Below, piece after piece: positions 134 to 14,942 of a stretch of 64,000 bases of DNA; positions within the stretch are counted from its first letter, which is position 1, and each line of letters starts with the position of its first letter. Source of the stretch: Hysterangium stoloniferum (taxonomy: Eukaryota; Basidiomycota; Agaricomycetes; Hysterangiales; Hysterangiaceae); contig WHVD01000009.1 of assembly GCA_015178975.1 (NCBI GenBank), positions 992,001 through 1,056,000 of the forward strand. The letters run 5' to 3'. The position numbers were made by a program, and so were the translations under genes. A model generated the notes under the pieces. That model saw only the letters and a program-made list of their open reading frames with translations, was not told the origin of the DNA and did no database searches.

Positions 134-720
134 GTCTTCCCTCTAACAGAGCCCCGTTCCCATTTTAGTCAAATGACCTGTCATGATTTGGACTCCACTT
201 CCACTCCATTTCCCATTATGGTTTATGATTTGTCACTATTCAGACTCCGCTCCATTCTGTCCCGTTCCTAACACCAAACTTGGTGTTTACTATTCCCGTT
301 TTATGTTTTGCTCATTTCATTTCATCATCACTGGATTTGGTATGACATTCACTCCACAGTCTATTTAAACTGGCAGATGTTGTACATACAATCCAGTCAG
401 AAAATCAGCTTAGATTCCCCCCAGTAATCTAATACATTTTCCACTCTAAACTCCTACTTGAATTACACTGCTCATGCTAGTCGGAGCCCACGGGCTCTGG
501 CACATTTATCTCTCTCGCCTATCTCGACTCACAACCTCACAACCTCCAACCTACGACCCCTCAACCCACGACTCCCGCCCAGACTCCCCGGGGTTCCCAT
601 CCGCCTGTCTGAAATTGGACAACACGATCTAGTGAGGGTGCAGCCTATAAGCTGAAGCCAAGTCCTACTGGATATCCCACAGGTTTCTCCGGAGACCCAC
701 CCTGTGTATGCATCTTAACA
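134..720 (+). repeat. 5' LTR of Gy-A, 5'-truncated
   Basis: This aligns with 9368-9955 of the right LTR and ends in the canonical TTAACA at 720. It contains the TATTTAAA box and the conserved block GTGCAGCCTATAAGCTGAAG near its 3' end. The first ~230 bp, beginning TGTTACGACC in intact copies, are missing. Confidence 0.9.
362..405 (+). promoter_or_regulatory. Gy-A core promoter and inferred transcript 5' end
   Basis: TATTTAAA starts at 362. The 11-mer AGTCAGAAAAT at 395-405 starts 33 nt downstream, a normal TATA-to-start distance, and is the reverse complement of the 11-mer at 723-733 just inside the element. I infer that 395 is the first base of the genomic RNA and that this segment primes minus-strand synthesis by folding back. 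Confidence 0.65.
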
Positions 721-722
721 GT

Positions 723-733
723 ATTTTCTGACT
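723..733 (+). other. Self-primer binding site (PBS) of Gy-A
   Basis: ATTTTCTGACT lies two bases (GT) after the LTR end, where a PBS is expected. It is exactly complementary over 11 nt to the inferred RNA 5' end at 395-405. The site does not begin with TGG, as a site for an unprocessed tRNA 3' end would. The length and placement match the self-priming PBS known from Tf1/sushi elements. Confidence 0.7.
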
Positions 734-756
734 AAGACTCACAGATTGTTTTCATT

Positions 757-1987
757 ATGCCACCAAGAAGAAAAGCGCACACGCAGGCATCATTACCTGG
801 ACTGTCGACTCTTCATTCCCCGTTAACTTTGTATACCAGCCAGACACTTGCGAACCAGTCGGAACCCATGGAAGAAGCCGGTATTGAAGAAGTCCCGGAA
901 AACCAGGACAAATCTGAGCACGAGGACAAATCCGTGGCCCCCGACAAGGGCAAAGGTGTCGAAAATCCTCTGTCTATCAAACGACCACACTTGGGGGATC
1001 CTACTTCAGAATTTCTAGCAGGTACTATAGATAGATTTATGACGCACCTGCTCGAAGAATGAAAGAAAAAGGAACAAGAACCTCCATAGTCAAAAGTCAA
1101 TGCTCTGGAACCCTTCACAGGTTCCAACCCAAACAAACTCTCTACTTTCCTCATGCAATGTCGCTTCAATTTCCGCGATCAATCCACTGCATTTCCCATG
1201 GACTCCTGAAAAGTCAACTACGCACTTTCATACTTGCCAGGATCCACATTGAAATGGTTCGAACCGGCTTTTAGCAGACTTTCTGAGGAAGAGCCGCTTT
1301 GGCTTGAAGATTGGGATGCTTTTGTTATGGAGCTTGAAACCAACTTTGGCCCATATGACCTGACAGGAGAAGCCGAGAACAGTCTCACAAATCTTTGTAT
1401 GAAGGACACGCAGTGCATCACGGACTATATCGTCCAGTTTAATACTCTTGCAGCTCATTGTCAGTGGGGCGATCCTGCTCTCCACCACCAATTCTATGCC
1501 GGTCTGCCATCCTGCCTTAAAGACGAAGTCTCGACTCAAAGCTCAAAATGCGGACACATGTTATTAGGAACATCATGTGGAAGTTGCCCGCAAAACCTCC
1601 ATGGACAAAGTAAACAAGTCCATGGCCAATAAAAACAACAACAACAACTCATCAACTAGCAACCAAAACTCCACGCAATCTGATAAGAAGAACGATAAAA
1701 AGTCTTCAAACAACAACAACAACAAGGACAATAACAAAGGTCAACAGTCCAGCAAGCAAACCAGAAAACCCGACCTCTCAGGCAAACTTGGACCTGATGG
1801 CAAATTGACCCCACAGGAAAGACAATGTCGCATGGACCATAACCTCTGTCTCTTGTGTGGGAAACCCGGCCATCGAGTCCTGGAATGTCTGCTGGCAAAA
1901 GCAAACTCTTCAAAGGGTCGAACAGCCAAGGCCTCCATGGAAACCACATCGAAGGACAAACCAGCTTCCAACTTGAAAAAAGAGTAA
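757..1987 (+). pseudogene. gag: Gy-A gag, frameshifted
   Basis: This is the structural capsid/nucleocapsid polyprotein. It starts MPPRRKAHTQ at 757, about 36 nt after the LTR. The first frame stops at 1062. The capsid-like core continues in another frame (1234-1632, with WLEDWDAFVMELETNFGPYD, also found in the Gy-B gag), and the C-terminal part in a third (1577-1987). The last part is rich in Asn/Lys/Ser and ends with a CCHC zinc knuckle, CLLCGKPGHRVLEC (C-X2-C-X4-H-X4-C), for RNA packaging. At least two indels separate these parts, so no intact protein is made. Identification rests on position, the zinc knuckle and parallel structure in Gy-B. Confidence 0.8.
1975..1981 (+). promoter_or_regulatory. 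Candidate -1 ribosomal frameshift site (Gy-A)
   Basis: In the gag frame the heptamer reads G_AAA_AAA, followed by GAG and the gag stop TAA (1985-1987). The protease frame lies at -1 and is open across this point (1855-2493). Gy-B has A_AAA_AAA at the same codon. Confidence 0.55.
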
Positions 1988-2296
1988 GCAACCCCACGGA
2001 CTCCGCACGGGTTGGGGGTTGCATTGCCTCTCTGCGCATTCAAGAGTTTACCCGTCTCAATGCATCCACTCTTTTGCATTGTGATTCATTTTTCGTTAAA
2101 CTTATGTCTAATATGATCCCAAAATTCGTTTTTTCAGCTCTTATAGATTCCGGCTCGACTCATTGTTTTTTAGATACAAAATTCATGCAAAAAAATTTAT
2201 TGTCAACTTATCCGATTAATCCCGTCGGACTCCACCTCTTCAATGGCACAAGTAATTCGGTTGTTACCCAAGCTTGTGATTTATCCATCTGTTTCC
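1988..2296 (+). pseudogene. Gy-A aspartic protease (N-terminal part)
   Basis: This is the start of pol in the -1 frame relative to gag. It has the retroviral-type aspartic protease active site ALIDSGSTHCF at about 2136-2168, matching ALIDSGSTHCFVDT in Gy-B. The enzyme would mature Gag-Pol. Homology to Gy-B stops abruptly at about 2296, inside the protease. The rest of the protease and the linker to reverse transcriptase are replaced by unrelated sequence, so the protein is broken here. Confidence 0.8.
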
Positions 2297-2910
2297 TGTT
2301 GTTACAACCGTGTTGCAGCCCTATCGGTCCCCAAGGTTATCACCACCTATCGACGATTCAAGTTACCGTTCAAGTCATCACATCGGAAACCAATGCTGAC
2401 GTACACTTTTGCAGTGATCAAACTCCATTTACGCCCATGTCAAAATATACTCAAACTATCTGGTTAAACTCTGATACGTCCCTTTTATTATGATGATCTG
2501 CTCTATCCTATGTTTCACATATGTCTATATATATTTGTAACCCTCGAACTATTTCCTTTCCTCATAATTCCACTCTCGGTTATTTCACGGCCTCCGAACT
2601 AATAGTAACCTCCCATTCCTAGTCAAGTTTATTTGTCAATACTGTGTTCCGCTCTTCTCCCAGTTAGTATTTTCTAGATGCCTGTTACTTGTATATGAAC
2701 CCGCTGTAGTTGTAGTTACTAGGCAATCAGAATATTGACTCAGAATACCCTCTTACACCTCCAGAAGTCTCATACTAAGAATTCCGTCTTCCACCTTCAC
2801 GTGCACTCACTCACTCTCGGTCCCTGACCCCTTGGCCTGACACTCGACTTAACCTTCAGTCCCGATTGGTATTACACTGAAAGGAACTCGTTAGTTTTCA
2901 GTTCTTAACA
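2297..2910. other. Unidentified 614-bp segment replacing protease C-terminus
   Basis: It begins TGTTGTTACAACC and ends GTTCTTAACA, which looks LTR-like, but no clear 5-bp duplication flanks it. About 495 bp of protein-coding sequence present in Gy-B is missing at this spot. No meaningful reading frame. It shares a CAAAATAYACTCA motif with the segment at 5596-6185. Confidence 0.4.
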
Positions 2911-3786
2911 CACCCCTAGGACATATTTACCCACTCTCGTCCATGGAACTTTCTGCGATCCGTGATTTCCTGGATGAACATTTGTCCATAGGTTTTATCA
3001 GACCCTCAAAGTCTCCTTTTGGAGCACCTGTTCTATTTGTCCGAAAAAAGGATGGATCCCTTAGACTATGTGTTGATTTTAGAGGCCTCAATGCTGTCAC
3101 CAAAAAGGATAAGTATCCACTCCCACTCATATCTGATCTGCTCGATGCTCCACAGAATGCCCAGATTTACACCAAAATAGATCTCAAACACACCTATCAT
3201 TTGGTCTGGATTGCCATGGGTGATGATTGGAAAACCACTTTTAGAACCCGTTATGGGGCCTTCAAGTGGTTAGTGATGCCCTTTGGACTCACCAATGCTC
3301 CGTCTGTTTTTCAGCATTTTATCAACGACATTTTCTCCAACATGCTCAATGTATGTGTTATTGTTTACTTGGATGACATTCTTATCTACTCCGAGAAACC
3401 CGTGGAACATGACAAACAAATCTGTGAAGTTCTCTGGAGACTCAGACAACATGGTTTATTCGCGAATGGTAAAAAATGTACTTTTGACATGGACTCCATG
3501 GAATACCTGGGTTTCATCATGGGACCTGACAGACTCTGCATGGACGAAACTAAAGTGCAAGTCATCAAATATTGGCCCAAACCCCAAAAAGTCAAAGATA
3601 TACAATCCTTTCTTGGCTTTGCCAATTTTTACTGACAGTTTATCCGCAGATATTCCAACATCACGGTACCCCTTACCCATCTTATGTGTAAGGATACTCT
3701 GTGGAATTTTAATGATAAGTGTCAAAAAGCTTTCAATCTTTTAAAAAATTCTTTTTCCTCAGCTCCTATTTTGTCGCATTGGAAAC
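2911..3786 (+). pseudogene. pol: Gy-A reverse transcriptase
   Basis: This is the RNA-dependent DNA polymerase domain. Homology to Gy-B resumes at PLG.IYPLS (about 2916) and runs through [32 protein letters not shown], the catalytic [10 protein letters not shown] (YLDD at about 3366-3377) and [13 protein letters not shown] at 3633-3635 replaces a codon that is His or Arg in relatives, consistent with CGA to TGA. The frame continues to about 3786, where the 1.3-kb solo LTR has inserted at ILSHWK. RNase H follows on the far side at 5110. Confidence 0.9.
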
Positions 3787-5109
3787 TGTGAGGTATCAGC
3801 TTTATCTCATAATTTTCTCTTAATTTTCTTTGAATTTATTAATATTTTCTCGAATTTATGGTATTTTTATTATATTTTTATTGTGAAATATAGGCTCTAT
3901 TCCTTTTAACTTCACATAATAATAGCATATATGAACTCATATTATGCTATTATATCTTAGTTAATTTATTATAATTTTTAACTAATTATTTATATTTTAT
4001 TTACTTAGTTATTACCTTTCGGCACCTTGCTGCAGCCTAGTTTGCGCATTTTTGAAGTCATGTGACCTATTAGATAAGCCTCCGGTGTCGGGATGTCACA
4101 CAAGTCACGAATGTGACTACCCGAGTCACACCAGTCACGATTGTGACTACCCGAGTCACACAAGTCACGAACGTGACTACCCGAGTCATTATTAGATTCC
4201 GCCGACTCATCGTTTGCTTCCGTCCCGGGACCGCGGCCTTGAACCTTCATGTTCAAGCAAGAGGTTAGAACCCTTGTCTCAGAGAAGGGAATCACATGAG
4301 AAACAAAGGGTAAATAATGAGTAGAATATGAGGTCATTATGATCTCACTAATGACCTCATAAACTAAATAGTTAGCTAATCATTGAGTTATCAAAATGTA
4401 TATAAGGAGGGCCAAGTTTCCAATAAAACCAATCTATCTCTCACATATTTGCAGCACAGCACCAGCTTATCTAATCATCCTAAGGACAATAATAGCCTTA
4501 GTCTGATACACTCACTGCAAGCACCTACACTTGCAGCATCTTGAATCTTTGTCAGCAACTCTTGGACTTAGCTAATCATCTAAGTTCCCCAGCCTCACAG
4601 CTACCCTTTAGGCTTATTAATTAGATAATAAACCTAATAAGTATCTAAGTATCCTTACTGAAATCCCTGCCAATACTAGATTACTCAAGGCCCAGCCCTA
4701 AGTTTATTGAATTAATCAAGTAGAAGCACTCAGATAATCCAATACAAATTATTTTCTCTATTAATAAATTATTTAACACCTTGTTAAATAACTATTAATA
4801 GTTACAAATAAGCATACAAGAATCCGAAGCTCTTATATCAAGTCTCTGCCAAGTTACTGCGCATATATTCAGCTTCCAGCCCCTATTCTCAAGGAATAGT
4901 TCTTGTATCTGCTAAAAGAGTCATACACAGTTCTATTGAACCTTTCAATAATCAAAATAAGCATTTATTTGAGTTGTTTAAGCTTAATAGCGCAGCTCAT
5001 TAATCTATCAGTATTTAAATTACTGGACCTTTGCTTGTTTTATTGTTGAAGCTCTGTGACACTATAGCATATATTGAGCTATCTAAGAGAATCCCCTGAA
5101 TACATTACA
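3787..5109 (+). mobile_element. Solo LTR, 1.3-kb family, inside Gy-A pol
   Basis: TGTGAGGTAT...ACATTACA is flanked by a 5-bp duplication GAAAC (3782-3786 and 5110-5114), and removing it rejoins the RT and RNase H reading frame. It has a TATATAAGG box near 4398. No coding region is seen. A second, partial copy lies at 9956-12215. It is younger than the Gy-A copy it interrupts. Confidence 0.9.
4094..4183 (+). repeat. 30-bp tandem repeat, 3 units
   Basis: Three near-identical 30-bp units (TCACACAAGTCACGAATGTG... ACTACCCGAG) lie in the upstream half of the 1.3-kb solo LTR. Each unit contains an inner inverted pair GTCAC/GTGAC. They could be regulator-binding repeats of that LTR. Confidence 0.75.
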
Positions 5110-5595
5110 GAAACCAGACTTCCCACTCATCGTTGAAATGGACGCCTCTGATTGTGCACTTGGAGCCATTCTGTCTATCCAGGACTCTGACGGAGAAGTT
5201 CACCCCATGGCTTTTCTGTCCCGGACTTTCACCAGAGCAGAGCTCAACTACGACGTTCATGATAAGGAACTCCTGGCAATCTTTTCAGCTTTCAAAGTGT
5301 GGCGACACTATTTAAAAGGCTCGGGAACTCCGATTGATGTTGTAACAGGTCACAAAAACCTGGAATACTTTTCTACCACAAACCTTTTGACCCATTGGCA
5401 GGCCGGCAGGTCTGAATATCTATCTGCCTTCAACATGATTATCTGCTTTTGACCCGGCCATCTCGGTGGCAAACCCAACACTTTAACTAGATGATGGAAT
5501 GTCTATCCTAAAGAGGGGAGCACTGACTATGCCACGGTAAACCCACACAACCTGAAACCTATTTTCACAAATCAACAACTTACCGCATCTGTGAG
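5110..5595 (+). pseudogene. pol: Gy-A RNase H domain
   Basis: This RNase H degrades the RNA strand during reverse transcription. Visible motifs are IVEMDASDCALGAILSIQ (catalytic Asp in the DAS motif), HPMAFLSRTF, LNYDVHDKELLAIFSAFK and VVTGHKNLEYF. TGA at 5450-5452 and another within TR.WNVYP replace Arg codons kept in Gy-B (FRPGHLGG, TRRWDVYP), again CGA to TGA. Homology ends at QQLTASVRG, where a second unidentified segment starts. Confidence 0.85.
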
Positions 5596-6185
5596 AGGTA
5601 TGGCAAAATACACTCAGGAAATATAGTCAGATGAGCTCTTACTATATTCCCTTTATTATTTCTGTTTTCTCTCTTTTATTATATATCTATAATTAGTTCG
5701 ACAACCTATGTATGCAGTACATCGACTCTTGTGGGTACATACATGCCAGACTTATGTATTCTAGCACCCGTAGTTTAGAACTCAGACACTTTTACACCGC
5801 AACCATGACTTACCCAGACACCCGTTAGTGTCCTGTAAGTTGTGATTGGTGTATTGTCTCGACCGTCACAGACGGGCTTTCGCTATCTACTCAATCAGAG
5901 TTTCGAACTGTACCAGTCGAAACTCAATCCTTATCTCAACCCGTGTGGACTACATCCATGCTACTCTATTATTCGACTCTCTAGTTACTCTACTTTGCAC
6001 TCGAGCAGTCGTTCAGAATCGCACTTAACAGTCAATTCTACTTATTCATTCTAGCTCTCTACCTTACTTTAGATAGCTACTTCTCTCTACCATATTGAAC
6101 TAAGCAGTCAATACATCCTGGTGTTGTACCTAAATGGTCGATATTCTTCGTATATAGAATGGTTAGAATTTCCACCACTCTTCAC
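5596..6185. other. Unidentified ~590-bp insertion in Gy-A pol
   Basis: This has no counterpart in Gy-B, where QQLSASIRATSLYYP runs on without a gap. Both edges of the insert encode TASVR in the pol frame but with different codons, so it is not a plain target duplication. It contains no reading frame that looks real. Its TGYA-rich, pyrimidine-rich composition resembles 2297-2910. Confidence 0.4.
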
Positions 6186-7722
6186 AGCATCAGTCCGCGC
6201 AGCCTTCCTCATCAATCCCATTGTCCGTGGAATTATCATTATGGATATCGAGAAGTTACATCAAGATATTCTATCAGCAATTCTGCTAGACCGGATAACT
6301 AAAGCTCACCTTGACAATCCTGTGGACCCCGATCAACCCCGGTGGTCTCTTGATCAGCATGGTTTCATTAGACTTGATGATTGCATCTATGTACCAGACT
6401 CCGATGGCCTCCACCTCAGGATCCTTCAATACAAACATGATCATCCACTCTCGGGACATTTCGGGTACAACAAAACTCTATCACTAATAAGAAGAGAATA
6501 TACTTGGCCTGGACTCCATGGATTTGTTAAGCACTATTGTCCATCTTGTACTACTTGTCCCTGCTCGAAATCTCAGTGACACAAGCCATACGGCCTTTTG
6601 AAACAACTCCCAGTACCAGAACATCCGTGGAATTCTATCTCTATGGATTTCATTGAACACTTACCGATTCCGAAGGCTTTTCCACCATTCTAGCCATTGT
6701 TGACAGATTCTCACAGCAAGGTATATTCATCCCTACATATGACACAATTACATCTGTGCAGTTAGCAGAACTTTTTATTATCCACGTATTTTCCAAGCAT
6801 GGAGTTCCGTCCCACGTAACTTCTGACCGAGGATCAGAGTTCATGTCTCACTTCTTTAGATCCCTTGGGAAATCCTTGGACATGAAATTACATTTCACGT
6901 CCAGACATCACCCGGAAGGCGATGGACAAACTGAACACGTCAACCAGACATTGGAATAATATCTCCACGTATATTGCAATTATCAACAGGACAATTGGAA
7001 ATCCTTGTTACCACTTACAGAATTTGCTTACAACAATGCACCCTCAGCCACTACTGGCATTTCCCCATTCTTTGCAAATAAAGGATATAATCCAAATATT
7101 ACAGTACATCCAGAATGAAATATTGCCTCTGCTCGCGCTCAAGAGTTCACCATGGACCTCCATGAGCTCCATGAGGAACTCCAGGCTGCAATAAAGTCCA
7201 CCCAAGAGCAATACCAACTTTCAGTGGACAGACCCAGATCCTGCCACCCAACTTCAAGATTGGTGACCATGTTTTTGTCAAAGCTCAATTCTTCTGGACT
7301 ACCTGTCCATCAAAAAAGCTTGCTGAAAAATATTTAGGTCCGTTTGAAATTATCACACAAGTAGGTTCAGTTTCTTGGACCCTACGGCTTCTGGATAGCA
7401 TGTGCACAGTACACCCGGTATTTCATGTTTCTATGCTAGAACCTTGTACTGCTAACACTATCCCGGATCGCGTGCAATCTCCACCTCCTCTGGTCATTAT
7501 TGACGGAGAACCCGAGTTTGAAATCTTGCAAATTTTAGATTCGAAAATTGACAAGCGTTGACGCACTTGTAAACTGCTTTACTTGGTCAAGTGGGCGGGT
7601 TACGAGGGCACGGATGAAGAAACTTCATGGATTTTGGCCATGGAACTCAGTAATGCCATGGAAATTGTTACTGACTTTCATACAGCTTACCCACTCAAAC
7701 CCAGACCACTATCATCTCTCTG
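6186..7722 (+). pseudogene. Gy-A integrase with C-terminal chromodomain
   Basis: Integrase inserts the cDNA. The N-terminal HHCC zinc domain is visible (YKHDHPLSGHFGYN, then CPSCTTC), followed by the DDE core (SMDFIE, TSDRGSEF, GDGQTEHVNQTLE) and the linker LHELHEELQAAIKS. The C-terminal chromodomain reads CKLLYLVKWAGYEGTDEETS at about 7565-7630. Breaks: TGA at 6577-6579, a frameshift near 6660, TAA at 6957-6959, TGA at 7116-7118, a shift near 7260-7400, and TGA at 7559-7561. The chromodomain class targets heterochromatin in related elements, which fits the nested landscape. The frame ends at PLSSL near 7722, the same C-terminus as Gy-B. Confidence 0.9.
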
Positions 7723-7935
7723 ACCACACTCGGCGGACCCTGTGTTATGTTTGGACTCATTTTCATTATTCCCTGTCACCCTATGTCTCTCTTTGCTTTT
7801 ACAGGTTCTGACATGTCTTTCAAGTCCTCAAGTGGATTTTCCATGGACTTTGACTTTGACTTTGATTTCTTATGTCTTTTCACACTTTACTTTTAAAAGA
7901 TTCAAAACATTATTATCAAGTTTTATTTTATTTTT

Positions 7936-8925
7936 TCAGTCTACATTTATGGGGCTGTCCTTTTTCCCCGCCTCAGCTTTCCCTGCCTCATTCACCTCCT
8001 CAGGGAGCTCCGCTATCTCCATGGGAACCCCATCCTCATCTGTCCTGGCCTCCTTGGAACTCCCGGCCTCCGGCTCCTCATACACAAAGCCGGCATACTC
8101 CACTAGGAACCTGTAATGTTCCAAGTGTGGAGATCATTTGCCATTACCACGCTTACCTTGTTGCTCTTCCAGAGCAACTCATTTTGGGCTTCAATGCCCT
8201 CAGCGATCCATCCCAAAGCCTCTTCCAAACCGGAATACCCATCTGTCCTGCTAATGTCCCATGCCCCAGACCCTGTGGGTTACTTGTAAACGAGCGAGCA
8301 CCTCGCCTTGAGGTGCGCACACTGGTAGCATCCCAGTCCCTGCCTGGACTTCTGATTGCACTCTGTGTTCCGGTCATTGCAACTGGAACACTGCAGATCA
8401 TTCCGTGTCGGTAGACGGACTGGCGCTGCCTTTTTTGCCTTCTGTTGTTATGGTTAGTTTCCCCAGTTATCCCACGGACCTGAGACATACCTTCTGGGGG
8501 CTCTCCAGCTCCTCCTCGGACTCGGACTCTACCTCTGTCGCTTTGCACTGAAAAACCCAAGTCAGCAAAATTTGACAAGTTGATGTTTTGGGACTTACCT
8601 TTCCTGCGACAATGGCAGCCCTGTCCATGGCCACCTGGGCTTTCTCCACAGCTACCCGGGCCCTCTCCGCAGCCACCCATGCAGCCATCTTTTTATTTTT
8701 TCGCCTCTGCCTCGCAGCCTCTTCCTCCGTGGCCAAAGCCGCCTGGTACTCTCTATCCAACGCCTCCTCGACCTCCCTCACCTCCTTCTCTGCTTCTTCC
8801 CATTGATGTTGCTGTTCCTCTCGCTGTGCTAAAATTTGTGCCGCACTGAGAGGCGTGCGATATGGAGAGCCCATGGAGGGCCTGGCGGTCGTCATTGGCC
8901 AGTGTGGCATTGGTTTTGGACCCAT
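7936..8925 (-). CDS. Antisense spliced gene of Gy-A: coiled coil plus Zn2Cys6-like cluster
   Basis: This gene is encoded opposite to gag-pol between the chromodomain and the 3' LTR. Start codon at 8925. Exon 1 (8925-8599, 109 codons) is a Glu/Ala/Arg-rich heptad region, probably coiled coil. Intron 1 has GTAAGT, a CTGAC branch-like site and TTTTTCAG. Exon 2 is 8547-8491 (acidic). Intron 2 has GTATGT, ACTAAC and AACAG. Exon 3 starts at 8441. Both introns are phase 0, and splicing reads straight into C146-X2-C149-X6-C156-X9-C166-X2-C169-X6-C176, the spacing of fungal Zn(II)2Cys6 clusters, then a TAA at 8280-8282. Homology to the Gy-B counterpart suggests the original gene ran on: GLEEALGWIAEGIEAQ is readable, then a possible third intron, then an acidic tail (7936-8086). 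The TAA may therefore be a CAA-to-TAA decay stop. Function unknown; DNA binding or regulation of the element is an inference. Confidence 0.7.
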
Positions 8926-9125
8926 ATGTCGATTGATGATGGGGGTAATAAAGAAGAAGAAAATTCATTTTTTTCGAATTTTTATATAGGCTCATCGCAT
9001 CTGAACCTTACCTTCCAGATCACATGACTCCTTGACACATAGGTGTAACTGACATGACTTTTGACACATGCACGTAGCCACCAAGAACCTTATCTAGGTC
9101 TAGAGCCTCTTTGGGACTTCGGCAT

Positions 9126-9138
9126 AAAGGGAGGGTAC
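9126..9138 (+). other. Polypurine tract of Gy-A
   Basis: AAAGGGAGGGTAC lies immediately 5' of the right LTR, the usual primer for plus-strand synthesis. Confidence 0.8.
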
Positions 9139-9955
9139 TGTTACGACCGGAAAATCCCGCCAGACTCCGGGCACTAACTCGTACACACCTGCGCCCTATA
9201 CACACCAATTGTCAGTTTACAGGAATTCCCGCCCAGACTCCATACATCAGACTTGTCCATGTTCGACCTCATTACGTCATGTATTAGTCACTGGAATACC
9301 CCTGGACTCTGTTCCCTGTCTATGTCCGACCTCGTCCCACACCAGTCACTGGACCCCACTTGGAATACCCGTCTTCCCTCTAACAGAGCCCTGTTCCCGT
9401 TTTAGTCAAATGACCTGTCACTATTTGGACTCCACTTCCACTCCGTTTCCCATTATGGTTTATGATTTGTCACTATTCGGACTCTGCTCCATTCCGTCCC
9501 ATTCCTAACACCAAACTTGGTGTTTACTATTCCCGTTTTATGTTTTGCTCATTTCGTTTCATCATTACTGGATTTGGTATGACATTCACTCCACGGTCTA
9601 TTTAAACTGGCAGATGTTGTACATACAATCCAGTCAGAAAATTGGCTTAGATTCCCCCCAGTAATCTAATACATTTTCTGCTCTAAACTCCTACTTGAAT
9701 TACACCGCTCACACTAGTCAGAGCCCACGGGCTCTGGTGCATTTATCTCTCTCGCCTATCTCGACTTACAACCTCACAACCTCCAACCTACAACCCCTCG
9801 ACCCACGACCCCCACCCAGACTCCCCAGGATTCCCATCCACCTGTCTGAAATTGGACAACACAATCTAGTGAGGGCACAGCCTATAAGCTGAAGCCAAGT
9901 CCTACTGGATATTCCGTGGGTTTCTCTGGAGACCCACCGTGTACACATCCTAACA
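9139..9955 (+). repeat. 3' LTR of Gy-A, complete (817 bp)
   Basis: It runs TGTTACGACC...CATCCTAACA. It contains the TATTTAAA box, the AGTCAGAAAAT 11-mer and the CAGC/GCTG hairpin block. It aligns with the truncated left LTR. Confidence 0.92.
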
Positions 9956-10234
9956 TGAGGTCATTATTGTCCAAATAATGATCTCATAAAATAGTTAAAT
10001 AGTTAAATATTTAGTTACCAAAATGTATATAAGGAGGGCCAAAATTCCATTATAAAACAACTTATCACACACAATGGTACTGCATCAGCCTTTGAGCTTA
10101 TCTCATCATCCTAAGGACAATAATAGCCTTAGTCTGATAGACTAACTGCAAGAACCTATACTTGCAAAATCTTGAACTCTTTGTCAGCACTCTTGAACTT
10201 AGCTAATCATCTAAGTTCCATCAGCCTCATAGCT

Positions 10235-11029
10235 TGTTACAACCAGAATTCCCACTGGACTCTGGGCACTAACTTATACACACCCACACCCTATATGCAC
10301 CAATTGTCAGTTTACTGGAATTCCCACTGGATTCCTTACATCAGACTTGTCCATGTTTGACTTCATTATGTCATGTATCAGTCACTGGAATACCTCCCGG
10401 ACTCCATCCCTGTCTATGTCCGACCTCGTCCCACACATCAGTCACTGGACCCCACTCGGAAAACCTTTCATCCCTCTAACTGAGCCCCATTCCCATTATA
10501 GTCAATGACCTGTCACGATTCAGACTCTGCTCCTGCTCCGTTCCCATTATGGTTTTATGACCTGTCACGATTCAGACTCCACTCCGTTCCGTTCCGTTCC
10601 TAACACCAAGTTTGGTGTTTACTTATCTCATTTTATGTTTGTTAGTTTCATTTTCATTATTACTGGATTTGGTATGTTATTCATTCCACAGTCTATATAG
10701 TCTGGCAGATGTTGTACATACAATCCCGTTAGAAAATCAGCTTAGATTCTCCCCAGTAATCTAGTACATTTTCCGCTCTAAACTCCTCTTTGAATTACAC
10801 CACTCTCACTAGTCAGATCCCATGGGCTCCGATGCATCTATCACTCAACCTCTGACTTATTTATCTCGACTCCCCGACCTCTCAACCCACAACCTCTCAA
10901 CCCACAACCTCTCAACCCACAACCTCTCAACCCACAACCTCCCAAGGGTGCAGCCTATAAGCTGAAGCCAAGTCCTACCAGATTTCCCATGGGTTTCTCC
11001 GGAAACCCTCTGTGTACACACCCTTAACA
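10235..11029 (+). mobile_element. Solo LTR, Gy-A type (TSD TAGCT)
   Basis: TGTTACAACC...CCCTTAACA is flanked by TAGCT at 10,230-10,234 and 11,030-11,034. A 15-bp minisatellite (AACCTCTCAACCCAC, about four units, 10,877-10,940) replaces the variable region seen in sister LTRs. Confidence 0.93.
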
Positions 11030-11058
11030 TAGCTACCCTTAGGCTTATTAAATACATA

Positions 11059-11733: not shown

Positions 11734-12215
11734 ATAATAAACCTAACAAGTCTCCTTATGGAAATCCCTGACAACACTTAGATTATTCAAGGCCCATACC
11801 TTAAGTTAGTGATTTAATCAAGTACAAGCACATAAAAAATCTGACACAAATTATCTTCTCTATTAATAAAATATTCAACTCCATGTTAAATATCTATTAA
11901 TAGTAAAGAATAAGTATACAAGAAAGTGAAGCCTTATATCAAGTCTCTGCCAAGGTACTGTGAATATATACTCAGCTTCCAGCCCTTATTCTCAAGGAAT
12001 AGTTGGTTATTTGCTAAAAGAGTTACACATTGTTCTTTTGAACCATTCAATAATCAAAATAAGCATTGATTTTAGTTGTTTAAGCTTAATAGTGCGACTA
12101 ATTAATCTATCAGTATTTAAATTACTGGACCTTTGCTTATTTTATTGTTGAAGCTCTGTGACACTATAGCATATGTATATTGAGCTATCTGAGAGAAACC
12201 CCTAAATACATTACA

Positions 12216-12495
12216 GACTCCTCACCTTACCCTTAGTAATTTGGCCCTCCAGCCAATTGAGGTAAGTGTTGATCTTCATTCCTATCATACTATCCACTCT
12301 GTTTGAAATACCAGAGCCCCCTAACAGTTTGTACAAGGGTGCAACACATAAGTTGAAGCCAAGCTCCACTGCATTTATAGAGTTGGACCTCCCAACTAGT
12401 ACAATCTCTATTGTCAGCCCCCTGATTTACTCAATTACCATTATTGGCCCCTCCAGCTTAGAGCCCCTTCTCCCCATTTGGTTTAGACCTTAACA
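12216..12495 (+). repeat. Degenerate LTR fragment, Gy-B-like
   Basis: This retains the conserved LTR block as GTGCAACACATAAGTTGAAG (about 12,336) and ends in CTTAACA at 12,495. The 5' end cannot be placed. The rest is too diverged to align by eye. Confidence 0.5.
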
Positions 12496-14131: not shown

Positions 14132-14942
14132 TGTTAGGACTGGAAAACCTGCCAGGCTCCAGACCCCATCCTATATGCACCTGACTCTCTATACCAGGTC
14201 ACAGTTACCTGGAAAACTCGCTGGGCTCCGGACCCCACCTTATAGGCACCTGACCTCTGTCTCATGCATCAGTCATTGGACAACCCACCAGGACCTGTCA
14301 AACCTACCTATGCCCAACTCTGCCAGGACCCATGCATGTCAAACCTGTCTATGTCTGACTCCATTTCATGCACCAGTCACCAGACTCCACCCAGACAACC
14401 CACCAGCTCTCTAACTGAGCCCCACTCCCATTATGGTCAAATGACCTGTCATGTTTCGGACTCTGCCCCCATTCTGTTCCATCCCTAACACCTAGTTTGG
14501 TGTTTATTCATCCTGATTTAGGTTTACTTGTTTAGGCTTTTATTATTACTGGATTTAGTATTGCATACATTCCACAGTCTATATAGTCTAGCTGATGTTT
14601 GTACATACAATCCGGTCAGAAAATCAACTAAGTTTTTGACTGAGTTCTCCCCCAGTTTCTTAACTTATATCCCACTCCATCCCCATCTCACAATGCTATC
14701 GACCCCATTGGAGGCTGCAGGCTTTCCGACTGGTCTTTCGACATTGACTTTCAACATCAACCTATCACCTACATATCACCCATAGCTGCACCCAGACTCC
14801 CCAGGTTTCCTCTCTGCTTGTTTGAAATTGGATGCTACAATCTCATGAGGGTGCAGCCTACATATAAGCTGAAGTTAAGTACTACTGGAATATCCATGGG
14901 TTTCTCCAGAAACCTTCCATCAAGCTCACACATCTCTTAACA
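14132..14942 (+). mobile_element. Solo LTR, Gy-A type (TSD AGAGC)
   Basis: TGTTAGGACT...TCTCTTAACA is flanked by AGAGC at 14,127-14,131 and 14,943-14,947. It carries the conserved hairpin block and a CTATATAGTC box. Confidence 0.92.

Follow-up and report, generated by a model that had tools for sequence, protein, structure and literature searches.

Positions 7936-8925 of the window, by which we mean the whole 64,000-nt stretch of Hysterangium stoloniferum DNA analysed, are a decayed copy of a genuine two-intron gene. The element that hosts it is a high-copy Ty3/Gypsy chromovirus, in which the gene occupies the antisense strand of the interval from the chromodomain end of pol to the 3' LTR. 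We consider it almost certain that this antisense gene is real and under selection.

Positions 134-9955 form a single decayed Ty3/Gypsy element, made up of an incomplete 5' LTR, gag, a pol interrupted by nested insertions, and a 3' LTR. The LTR ends (TG..CA) and the polypurine tract (PPT; AAAGGGAGGGTAC) are present on direct reading, the 5' LTR being partial. In Pfam searches, the window pol matched RVT_1, Integrase_H2C2, rve and SH3_Tf2-1, and a better-preserved relative, L026, matched Retrotrans_gag, RVP_2, RVT_1, RNaseH, Integrase_H2C2, rve, SH3_Tf2-1 and Chromo, with the domains in PR-RT-RH-INT order and the chromodomain following integrase. As the Chromo match of L026 scores above the Pfam cut-off (29.3 vs 25.1 bits), the element is a chromovirus; the gag zinc knuckle of L026 falls below threshold (19.8 of 27 bits) yet reads CX2CX4HX4C. 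The positions of all parts in the window are as follows.

134..720, + strand: partial 5' LTR, first ~230 bp missing; across 587 alignment columns it is 92.7% identical to its 3' counterpart
736..7724, + strand: gag-pol in decayed form, interrupted by nested insertions; comprises gag, protease, RT, RNase H, integrase and the SH3/chromodomain end
7936..8441, - strand: exon 3, with a premature TAA (8282-8280) and a frameshift in the window copy
8298..8390, - strand: six-cysteine cluster CX2CX6CX9CX2CX6C, read directly
8442..8490, - strand: intron 2, 49 nt, GTATGT..ACTAAC..CAG
8491..8547, - strand: exon 2, 57 nt (57 nt in 33/34 copies), acidic/basic stretch
8548..8598, - strand: intron 1, 51 nt, GTAAGT..CTGAC..CAG
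8599..8925, - strand: exon 1, 327 nt, start codon ATG (8925-8923); encodes the N-terminus and a long helix-like Ala/Glu/Arg stretch
8926..9138, no strand assigned: conserved block with the candidate antisense promoter region and the sense polypurine tract (AAAGGGAGGGTAC)
8982..8988, - strand: TATATAA, a TATA-like box; in the window copy it precedes the ATG by 63 nt
9023..9079, - strand: ~29-bp direct repeat, imperfect and in tandem, lying upstream of the TATA box; its core, ATGTGTCAAA-(g)aGTCATG, occurs twice
9139..9955, + strand: 3' LTR, TGTTA...TAACA, read directly

Further copies come from the H. stoloniferum genome (111 Mb, 554 contigs). The neighbouring pol segment is preserved to 60% or more in 29 of 36 aligned sequences (the window and 35 loci), the loci having been chosen by similarity to the antisense gene, so that element copies without the gene lie outside the sample. 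Elsewhere in the window, the insert in the RNase H region (3791-5120) has repeats in common with 9952-10176 and 11779-12217, indicating that another repeat family is nested there. Two more LTR-like stretches downstream (10247-11030 and 14344-14860) are 70-91% similar to pieces of the element's LTR and are probably relics of other subfamilies.

Splice borders and both introns are conserved across copies

Both introns are in phase 0, and the three exons join into one frame. On direct reading and by script, the exon/intron borders, splice motifs and phase-0 joins of the antisense gene are all as the first-pass annotation had described them. Across the 49 aligned copies, window included, donor 1 is GT without exception (GTAAGT in 47) and acceptor 1 is always AG; donor 2 is GT and acceptor 2 is AG in 48 copies each. 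Within the final 30 nt of the intron, a CTRAY branch-like motif is found in 38 of the 49 copies for intron 1 and in 47 for intron 2. Intron 1 varies in length from 35 to 59 nt in this set, and length is divisible by three for exon 2 in 47/49 copies and for exon 1 in 34/49. With borders kept in 48-49 of 49 copies and the coding selection described below, the earlier claim of a spliced antisense protein-coding gene within a Gypsy chromovirus is borne out.

In the window copy the frame comprises 181 residues and is ended by TAA at 8282-8280; a length difference in exon 3 (46 vs 53 nt) additionally shifts the frame. The 181-residue product of this copy therefore represents a truncation; open copies encode ~285-298 aa. 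Open copies of the youngest subfamily run through exon 3 without a third intron to 294 aa, their stop aligning with window positions 7938-7936. A third intron considered at 8156-8111 was dropped, since open copies read straight through it.

Among the 22 copies aligned first, six (L014, L019, L022, L024, L026 and L027) have the same two introns and a frame open to 294 residues. In a set of 34 copies, composed of these 22 and 12 chosen for an open exon 3, the frame is open to about the C-terminus in 11 (285-298 residues), one of which, L035, has lost a cysteine. L028 and L015 reach 297 and 279 residues but finish in a shifted frame. Open copies are over-represented in the sample, L029-L040 and L041-L055 having been picked mostly for open exon-3 frames; none of L041-L055 is open across the whole spliced frame (L044 is short and L047 has 272 residues). 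A genome search with the exon-3 protein returned 1344 candidates, and a hand count of the 150 scored among them found a stop-free exon 3 in 111. Nineteen rows among the 150 scored of 1344 tied at 361.6 bits with 99% identity, which speaks for recent amplification. Where scored exon-3 rows contain stops (39 of the 150 scored of 1344), TGA is found in 36, as expected from CGA→TGA at methylated CpG. Near the 5' end of copy L028, a 14-bp tandem array (52 overlapping reference hits) was seen from L028:1131 onward (C334:1228100-1237900).

Both introns are present in all 49 aligned copies, and all 27 copies found via the intron-free exon-3 protein (L029-L055) still hold both. A 64-residue query across both junctions found no stop-free joined exon 2-exon 3 border among 150 scored of 995 candidates. 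Intron retention in every aligned copy is to be expected if the elements are copied via their sense RNA, and fits the earlier statement that antisense introns survive sense retrotransposition.

Two annotated H. stoloniferum relatives, P0001 and P0002 (BU17DRAFT_80596 and BU17DRAFT_86143), are partial gene models over copies of the antisense gene and map to contigs C334 and C135 of the genome surveyed. In the P0002 copy, intron 1 is 30 nt long and stop-free (GTAAGT...CAG), and the NCBI model skips precisely this intron, exits exon 2 at the predicted donor (GTAAGC) and then joins a distant C-terminal piece. This model is an independent annotation agreeing with the intron 1 borders and the exon 2 donor predicted here. 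Locus L056:1-441 belongs with these models.

The spliced frame is under purifying selection

Among 8 copies, dN/dS in the gene frame was 0.26 for exon 1, 0.16 for exon 2 and 0.25 for exon 3. The two remaining frames on this strand gave 0.72-2.91; on the opposite strand, the frame with shared third positions mirrors the gene at 0.18-0.41 and the other two gave 1.03-1.57 (8 copies in each case). Between subfamilies, dN/dS of the gene was 0.16-0.43 (10 representative copies) and that of pol 0.22-0.42 (7 representative copies of the same kind). By this measure, the protein-level conservation of the antisense gene is similar to that of pol, while its absolute divergence is far above pol. Across copies dN/dS thus came out at ~0.25, and not near 1, the value that the first-pass annotation had set against the gene, and indicates purifying selection. 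No 20-codon window exceeded 0.66 (24 of 36 copies, near-identical ones removed); with a dN/dS of ~0.25 and no window above this value, positive selection is not seen.

As the elements show strong C-to-T decay, counts were repeated at sites not prone to CpG loss. Non-CpG transversions per site were 0.028 at 0-fold sites, 0.121 at 4-fold sites and 0.093 in introns (9 copies), and the purifying signal holds both after CpG masking and in transversion-only counts. Introns and the 5' flank are less diverged than 4-fold sites, at non-CpG positions (0.178 and 0.052 vs 0.247) as well as at all sites (0.219 and 0.095 vs 0.373; 9 copies), which means that the neutral rate varies and that the magnitude of dN/dS is uncertain. 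Despite this unevenness, 0-fold transversions remain well under intron transversions. The selection signal indicates that the protein product of the gene was important as long as the elements were active.

The six-cysteine cluster looks like a half-swapped Zn2Cys6

The consensus of Zn(II)2Cys6 domains is C-X2-C-X6-C-X5-12-C-X2-C-X6-8-C. On direct reading, the cysteines of exon 3 have exactly the C-X2-C-X6-C-X9-C-X2-C-X6-C spacing noted before, which fits this six-cysteine consensus (PF00172). All 38 rows keep Cys 3-6, and 37 each keep Cys 1 and Cys 2. When the protein is divided into ten segments, the cluster shows the strongest constraint (pN/pS 0.20; 24 of 36 copies).

The whole protein gave no Pfam match at E up to 1 and no NCBIfam match. 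A weak Zn_clus match was obtained for 20 of 22 exon-3 sequences (best E 0.17), covering one half only in the first member. In native order, four cluster peptides scored 15.4, 10.7, 14.4 and 14.9 bits against a Pfam gathering cut-off of 21, and the N-terminal half (CSGCNDRNTEC type) scored best on profile positions 17-34, which correspond to the canonical second half. CYQCAHLKARC, the C-terminal half, follows what we take to be the C-X2-C-X3-K-X-R-C form of the canonical first half. Upon swapping the halves, Zn_clus scores went up in 4/4 copies, to 19.8, 17.3, 20.9 and 20.6 bits, in one stretch over profile positions 2-31; an earlier swap of the first copy with a longer linker had scored 16.3 bits. 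GAL4, the sole control, dropped from 47.2 to 34.7 bits when its halves were swapped, still above the cut-off and in two stretches. Swapped scores of the Hysterangium peptides remain, just, under 21 bits and, as this holds for all their Zn_clus scores, we do not file the gene as a PF00172 member. Overall, the cluster looks like a half-swapped Zn2Cys6. Its earlier description as Zn2Cys6-like stands as far as the exact spacing goes, but Zn_clus scores lie below the cut-off and the halves appear swapped in order. The likeness to fungal Zn(II)2Cys6 proteins (PF00172, GAL4 type) is thus the exact spacing; unlike them, the Hysterangium protein has its cluster halves swapped by profile and a native score below the cut-off, and it is retrotransposon-borne and antisense.

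The ~294-aa protein is ordered as a charged helix-like N-terminus, a basic KRK...KKARK stretch, the cluster, a second helix-like region and an acidic tail. In an open copy, residues 28-107 form a Gly/Pro-free Ala/Glu/Arg stretch. Residues 28-108 show no significant 3.5-residue periodicity (p 0.53; p 0.007-0.015 at 3.6-3.67 residues), and the coiled coil proposed earlier is not secured; 3.5-residue periodicity is significant at residues 200-245 (p 0.003). AlphaFold2 models were poor (pLDDT 49.7 and 52.8 for exon 3 and the Cys region, respectively).

A conserved block lies upstream of the gene

The 213 bp from the ATG to the 3' LTR have a non-CpG p-distance of 0.024-0.048, compared with 0.105-0.187 in the gene body (24 of 36 copies). 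A TATA-like box is found in 21 of 22 copies, the region being absent from the 22nd, and the block alignment (23 rows) also contains a pyrimidine-rich leader. Because the block serves both strands, its conservation alone is no proof of an antisense promoter. A pattern search found the first unit of the direct repeat once in each of 4 elements, and deletions affect the repeat in 3 of 23 rows (L014, L046 and L055). The direct repeat in this promoter/PPT block is the best candidate for a binding site.

The gene is a divergence peak and appears to move between element lineages

The antisense gene forms a sharply bounded peak of divergence, ~24% on a backbone diverged by 4-5%. Compared in 75-bp windows, L022 and L041 are 1-8% apart in pol and 17-33% apart in the gene; the promoter block gives 6-9% and the LTR 4-14%. 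Over whole elements, LTRs aside, only a gag stretch (non-CpG 0.14, one window) nears the gene (0.10-0.17; 7 copies). Parts of the 3' LTR are also divergent between subfamilies (non-CpG p ~0.1-0.155; L022 8686-8885 and 9085-9385). For the pair L022-L048, 4-fold transversions number 1/222 in pol and 24/128 in the gene, a contrast that indicates depth of descent and not amino-acid selection alone. Within classes, the gene is ~2-fold faster than pol at silent sites (L022-L020: dS 0.195 vs 0.093). The other main gene class on similar backbones was sampled as broken copies only, so simultaneous activity of two classes cannot be claimed.

Trees and AU tests were based on the 29 of 36 copies with pol present, and the clades tested were named after the trees had been seen. 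The pol data reject the antisense clades of 16 copies (AU p 2.6e-5) and of 7 copies (p 0.017); the antisense data reject a 15-row pol clade (AU p 1.1e-6) and a 21-row subset of a 22-row pol clade (AU p 1.9e-100). Support for the pol clades was moderate (SH-aLRT 93 and 86), and the pair of the window and L009 survives the AU test (p 0.21). The conflict between gene and pol trees indicates that the gene moved between element lineages, presumably via template switching.

We also compared distance matrices for the 11 of 24 copies with all segments; L047 has an outlying LTR in this set, and gag was outside the comparison. Exon 3 distances showed no significant co-variation with LTR U3 (r 0.13, p 0.18), the rest of the LTR (0.00) or the flank (0.10), and an immunity-like co-divergence of the gene with U3 thus finds no support for exon 3. 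For exon 1 the distances do correlate, with r 0.47 for U3 (p 0.004), 0.48 for the flank (p 0.002) and 0.28 for the remainder of the LTR (p 0.01). Exon 1 also tracks pol (r 0.39-0.55), which U3 tracks more closely (0.69-0.70).

Antisense genes of other LTR elements

Protein database searches, based on common 5-residue words and in two of three cases limited to about 8,000 candidates, had only P0001 and P0002, both from H. stoloniferum, among the matches listed. A scan of viral contigs found no relative of the protein, and a sequence search of solved structures gave nothing but Talin helix matches (E 0.055 and 0.085). HTLV, a retrovirus, has antisense products of the bZIP class. Their genes, HBZ and APH-2, are described as regulatory, with a promoter on the 3' LTR side (PMC11963269, PMC7264820); the Hysterangium gene shares with these descriptions an antisense orientation and a candidate promoter on the 3' LTR side, a likeness of layout for which no sequence relation is claimed.

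Antisense accessory genes as such are known already, from plant Grande and Retand and from fungal Boty brtn. According to the available text of two papers, plant Ty3/Gypsy elements carry antisense ORFs in Grande (gene23), RIRE2, PvRetro13 and Retand (TRP28), with an own promoter and a nuclear product reported for Grande and possible DNA binding for Retand (PMC7264820, PMC11963269). Like these plant ORFs as described there, the Hysterangium gene lies antisense between pol and the 3' LTR, occurs in most copies and is conserved at the protein level. Unlike it, they belong to plant families, and the words 'intron' and 'zinc' are absent from the main texts of both papers. Boty (BcGypsy1) of Botrytis cinerea has the antisense gene brtn (Zhao et al. 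2011, as cited in the accessible text of PMC7264820, PMC8365987, PMC4227169 and PMC5987419). Going by these citing descriptions alone, it resembles our case in being a Gypsy element of a fungus that has a chromodomain and carries an extra gene in antisense; unlike Hysterangium, its host is an ascomycete. The first-pass annotation knew of no fungal Gypsy family with such a gene, and for the antisense gene itself that has to be amended by Boty brtn, as cited. No such gene in a basidiomycete element was found in the literature covered, which includes few subscription journals, and 'antisense' occurs nowhere in the accessible text of a 2011 survey of fungal LTR elements (PMC3248453). What appears new is the half-swapped-looking cluster, the bounded divergence peak with exchange, and the conserved upstream block with TATA box and direct repeat.

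Discussion

Gene structure, splice conservation, purifying selection, the divergence peak and lineage exchange can be read from the sequences themselves; expression, zinc binding, self-pairing, DNA binding and regulation are what we infer. With moderate confidence, we favour a model in which the element encodes a nuclear, DNA-binding regulator that has a zinc cluster. The antisense gene would be transcribed from its own candidate TATA promoter beside the 3' LTR, and removal of two introns would yield the ~294-aa protein. This protein would re-enter the nucleus, pair with itself, bind DNA and regulate the element, with the conserved direct repeat in the promoter/PPT block as a candidate target. 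As far as they are described in the sources above, Grande gene23 and Retand TRP28 are precedents for a nuclear or possibly DNA-binding antisense product. Weighing against the model are the Zn_clus scores under 21 bits, the poor AlphaFold2 models, the repeat deletions in 3 of 23 rows, the uneven neutral rate and the lack of significant co-variation of LTR and flank with exon 3.

That the frame is a chance or fragmentary one with fortuitous splice signals might be suggested by the broken window copy, but is refuted by the 1344 genome candidates (150 scored), the open copies, the selection and the conserved introns, and we give it practically no credence. It also seems very improbable that the antisense RNA alone matters, as dsRNA or by interfering with the sense transcript, and that the open frame is incidental: antisense LTR-element transcripts can feed small-RNA silencing, as stated in the available text of PMC7264820, but purifying selection in each exon, kept splice borders and cysteines present in 37-38 of 38 rows already disfavour this.

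Two further possibilities take the protein as the active product. It might target the host, for example chromatin or small-RNA silencing, instead of element DNA, with host pressure keeping several old versions; to this we assign a modest chance. In its favour, the gene is the divergence peak of the element's 3' part, with pol and the promoter block staying similar, and when full elements are compared it is also more diverged than gag and pol are along most of their length (7 copies). Moreover, none of the compared segments outside the gene co-varies significantly with exon 3 (11 copies; gag outside the comparison), and the elements, which look CpG-decayed (TGA in 36/39 stop rows among 150 scored; transition excess), are probably methylated. 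However, with dN/dS at ~0.25 and no 20-codon window above 0.66 positive selection is not seen, and the Zn2Cys6-like cluster points towards DNA. Alternatively, the protein could be a self-limiting regulator, each class repressing its own kind and rare versions escaping, so that diversification and swapping would arise as in phage immunity regions. Deep gene classes on similar backbones (1/222 vs 24/128 4-fold transversions in pol and gene of L022-L048), exchange backed by AU tests and the correlation of exon 1 with U3 (0.47), flank (0.48) and rest of the LTR (0.28) agree with this idea. We nonetheless regard it as improbable, considering that the cluster-bearing exon 3 is uncorrelated (U3 0.13, rest of LTR 0.00, flank 0.10), that U3 follows pol more (0.69-0.70) and exon 1 follows pol too (0.39-0.55), and that again no 20-codon window exceeds a dN/dS of 0.66. 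A nuclear DNA-binding regulator encoded by the element remains the reading we prefer.

Antisense accessory genes of LTR elements are known, and their function is obscure. The Hysterangium gene provides a clean basidiomycete case, with two introns, protein-level selection, an odd-order candidate DNA-binding cluster, a candidate promoter block and a history of exchange in which pol has no part. It also illustrates that gene predictors make partial host models from pieces of such genes, as in BU17DRAFT_80596 and BU17DRAFT_86143. A tentative idea, which we think rather unlikely, is that this is an exchangeable antisense 'identity' gene, a spliced regulator with a half-swapped zinc cluster, whose old diverged versions on similar backbones are kept by diversifying or frequency-dependent selection against self-repression or host silencing. 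If true, such an identity gene would be comparable to the immunity regions of temperate phages. Why a retrotransposon retains an antisense regulator, and in so many versions, is a question now open to expression and binding assays.
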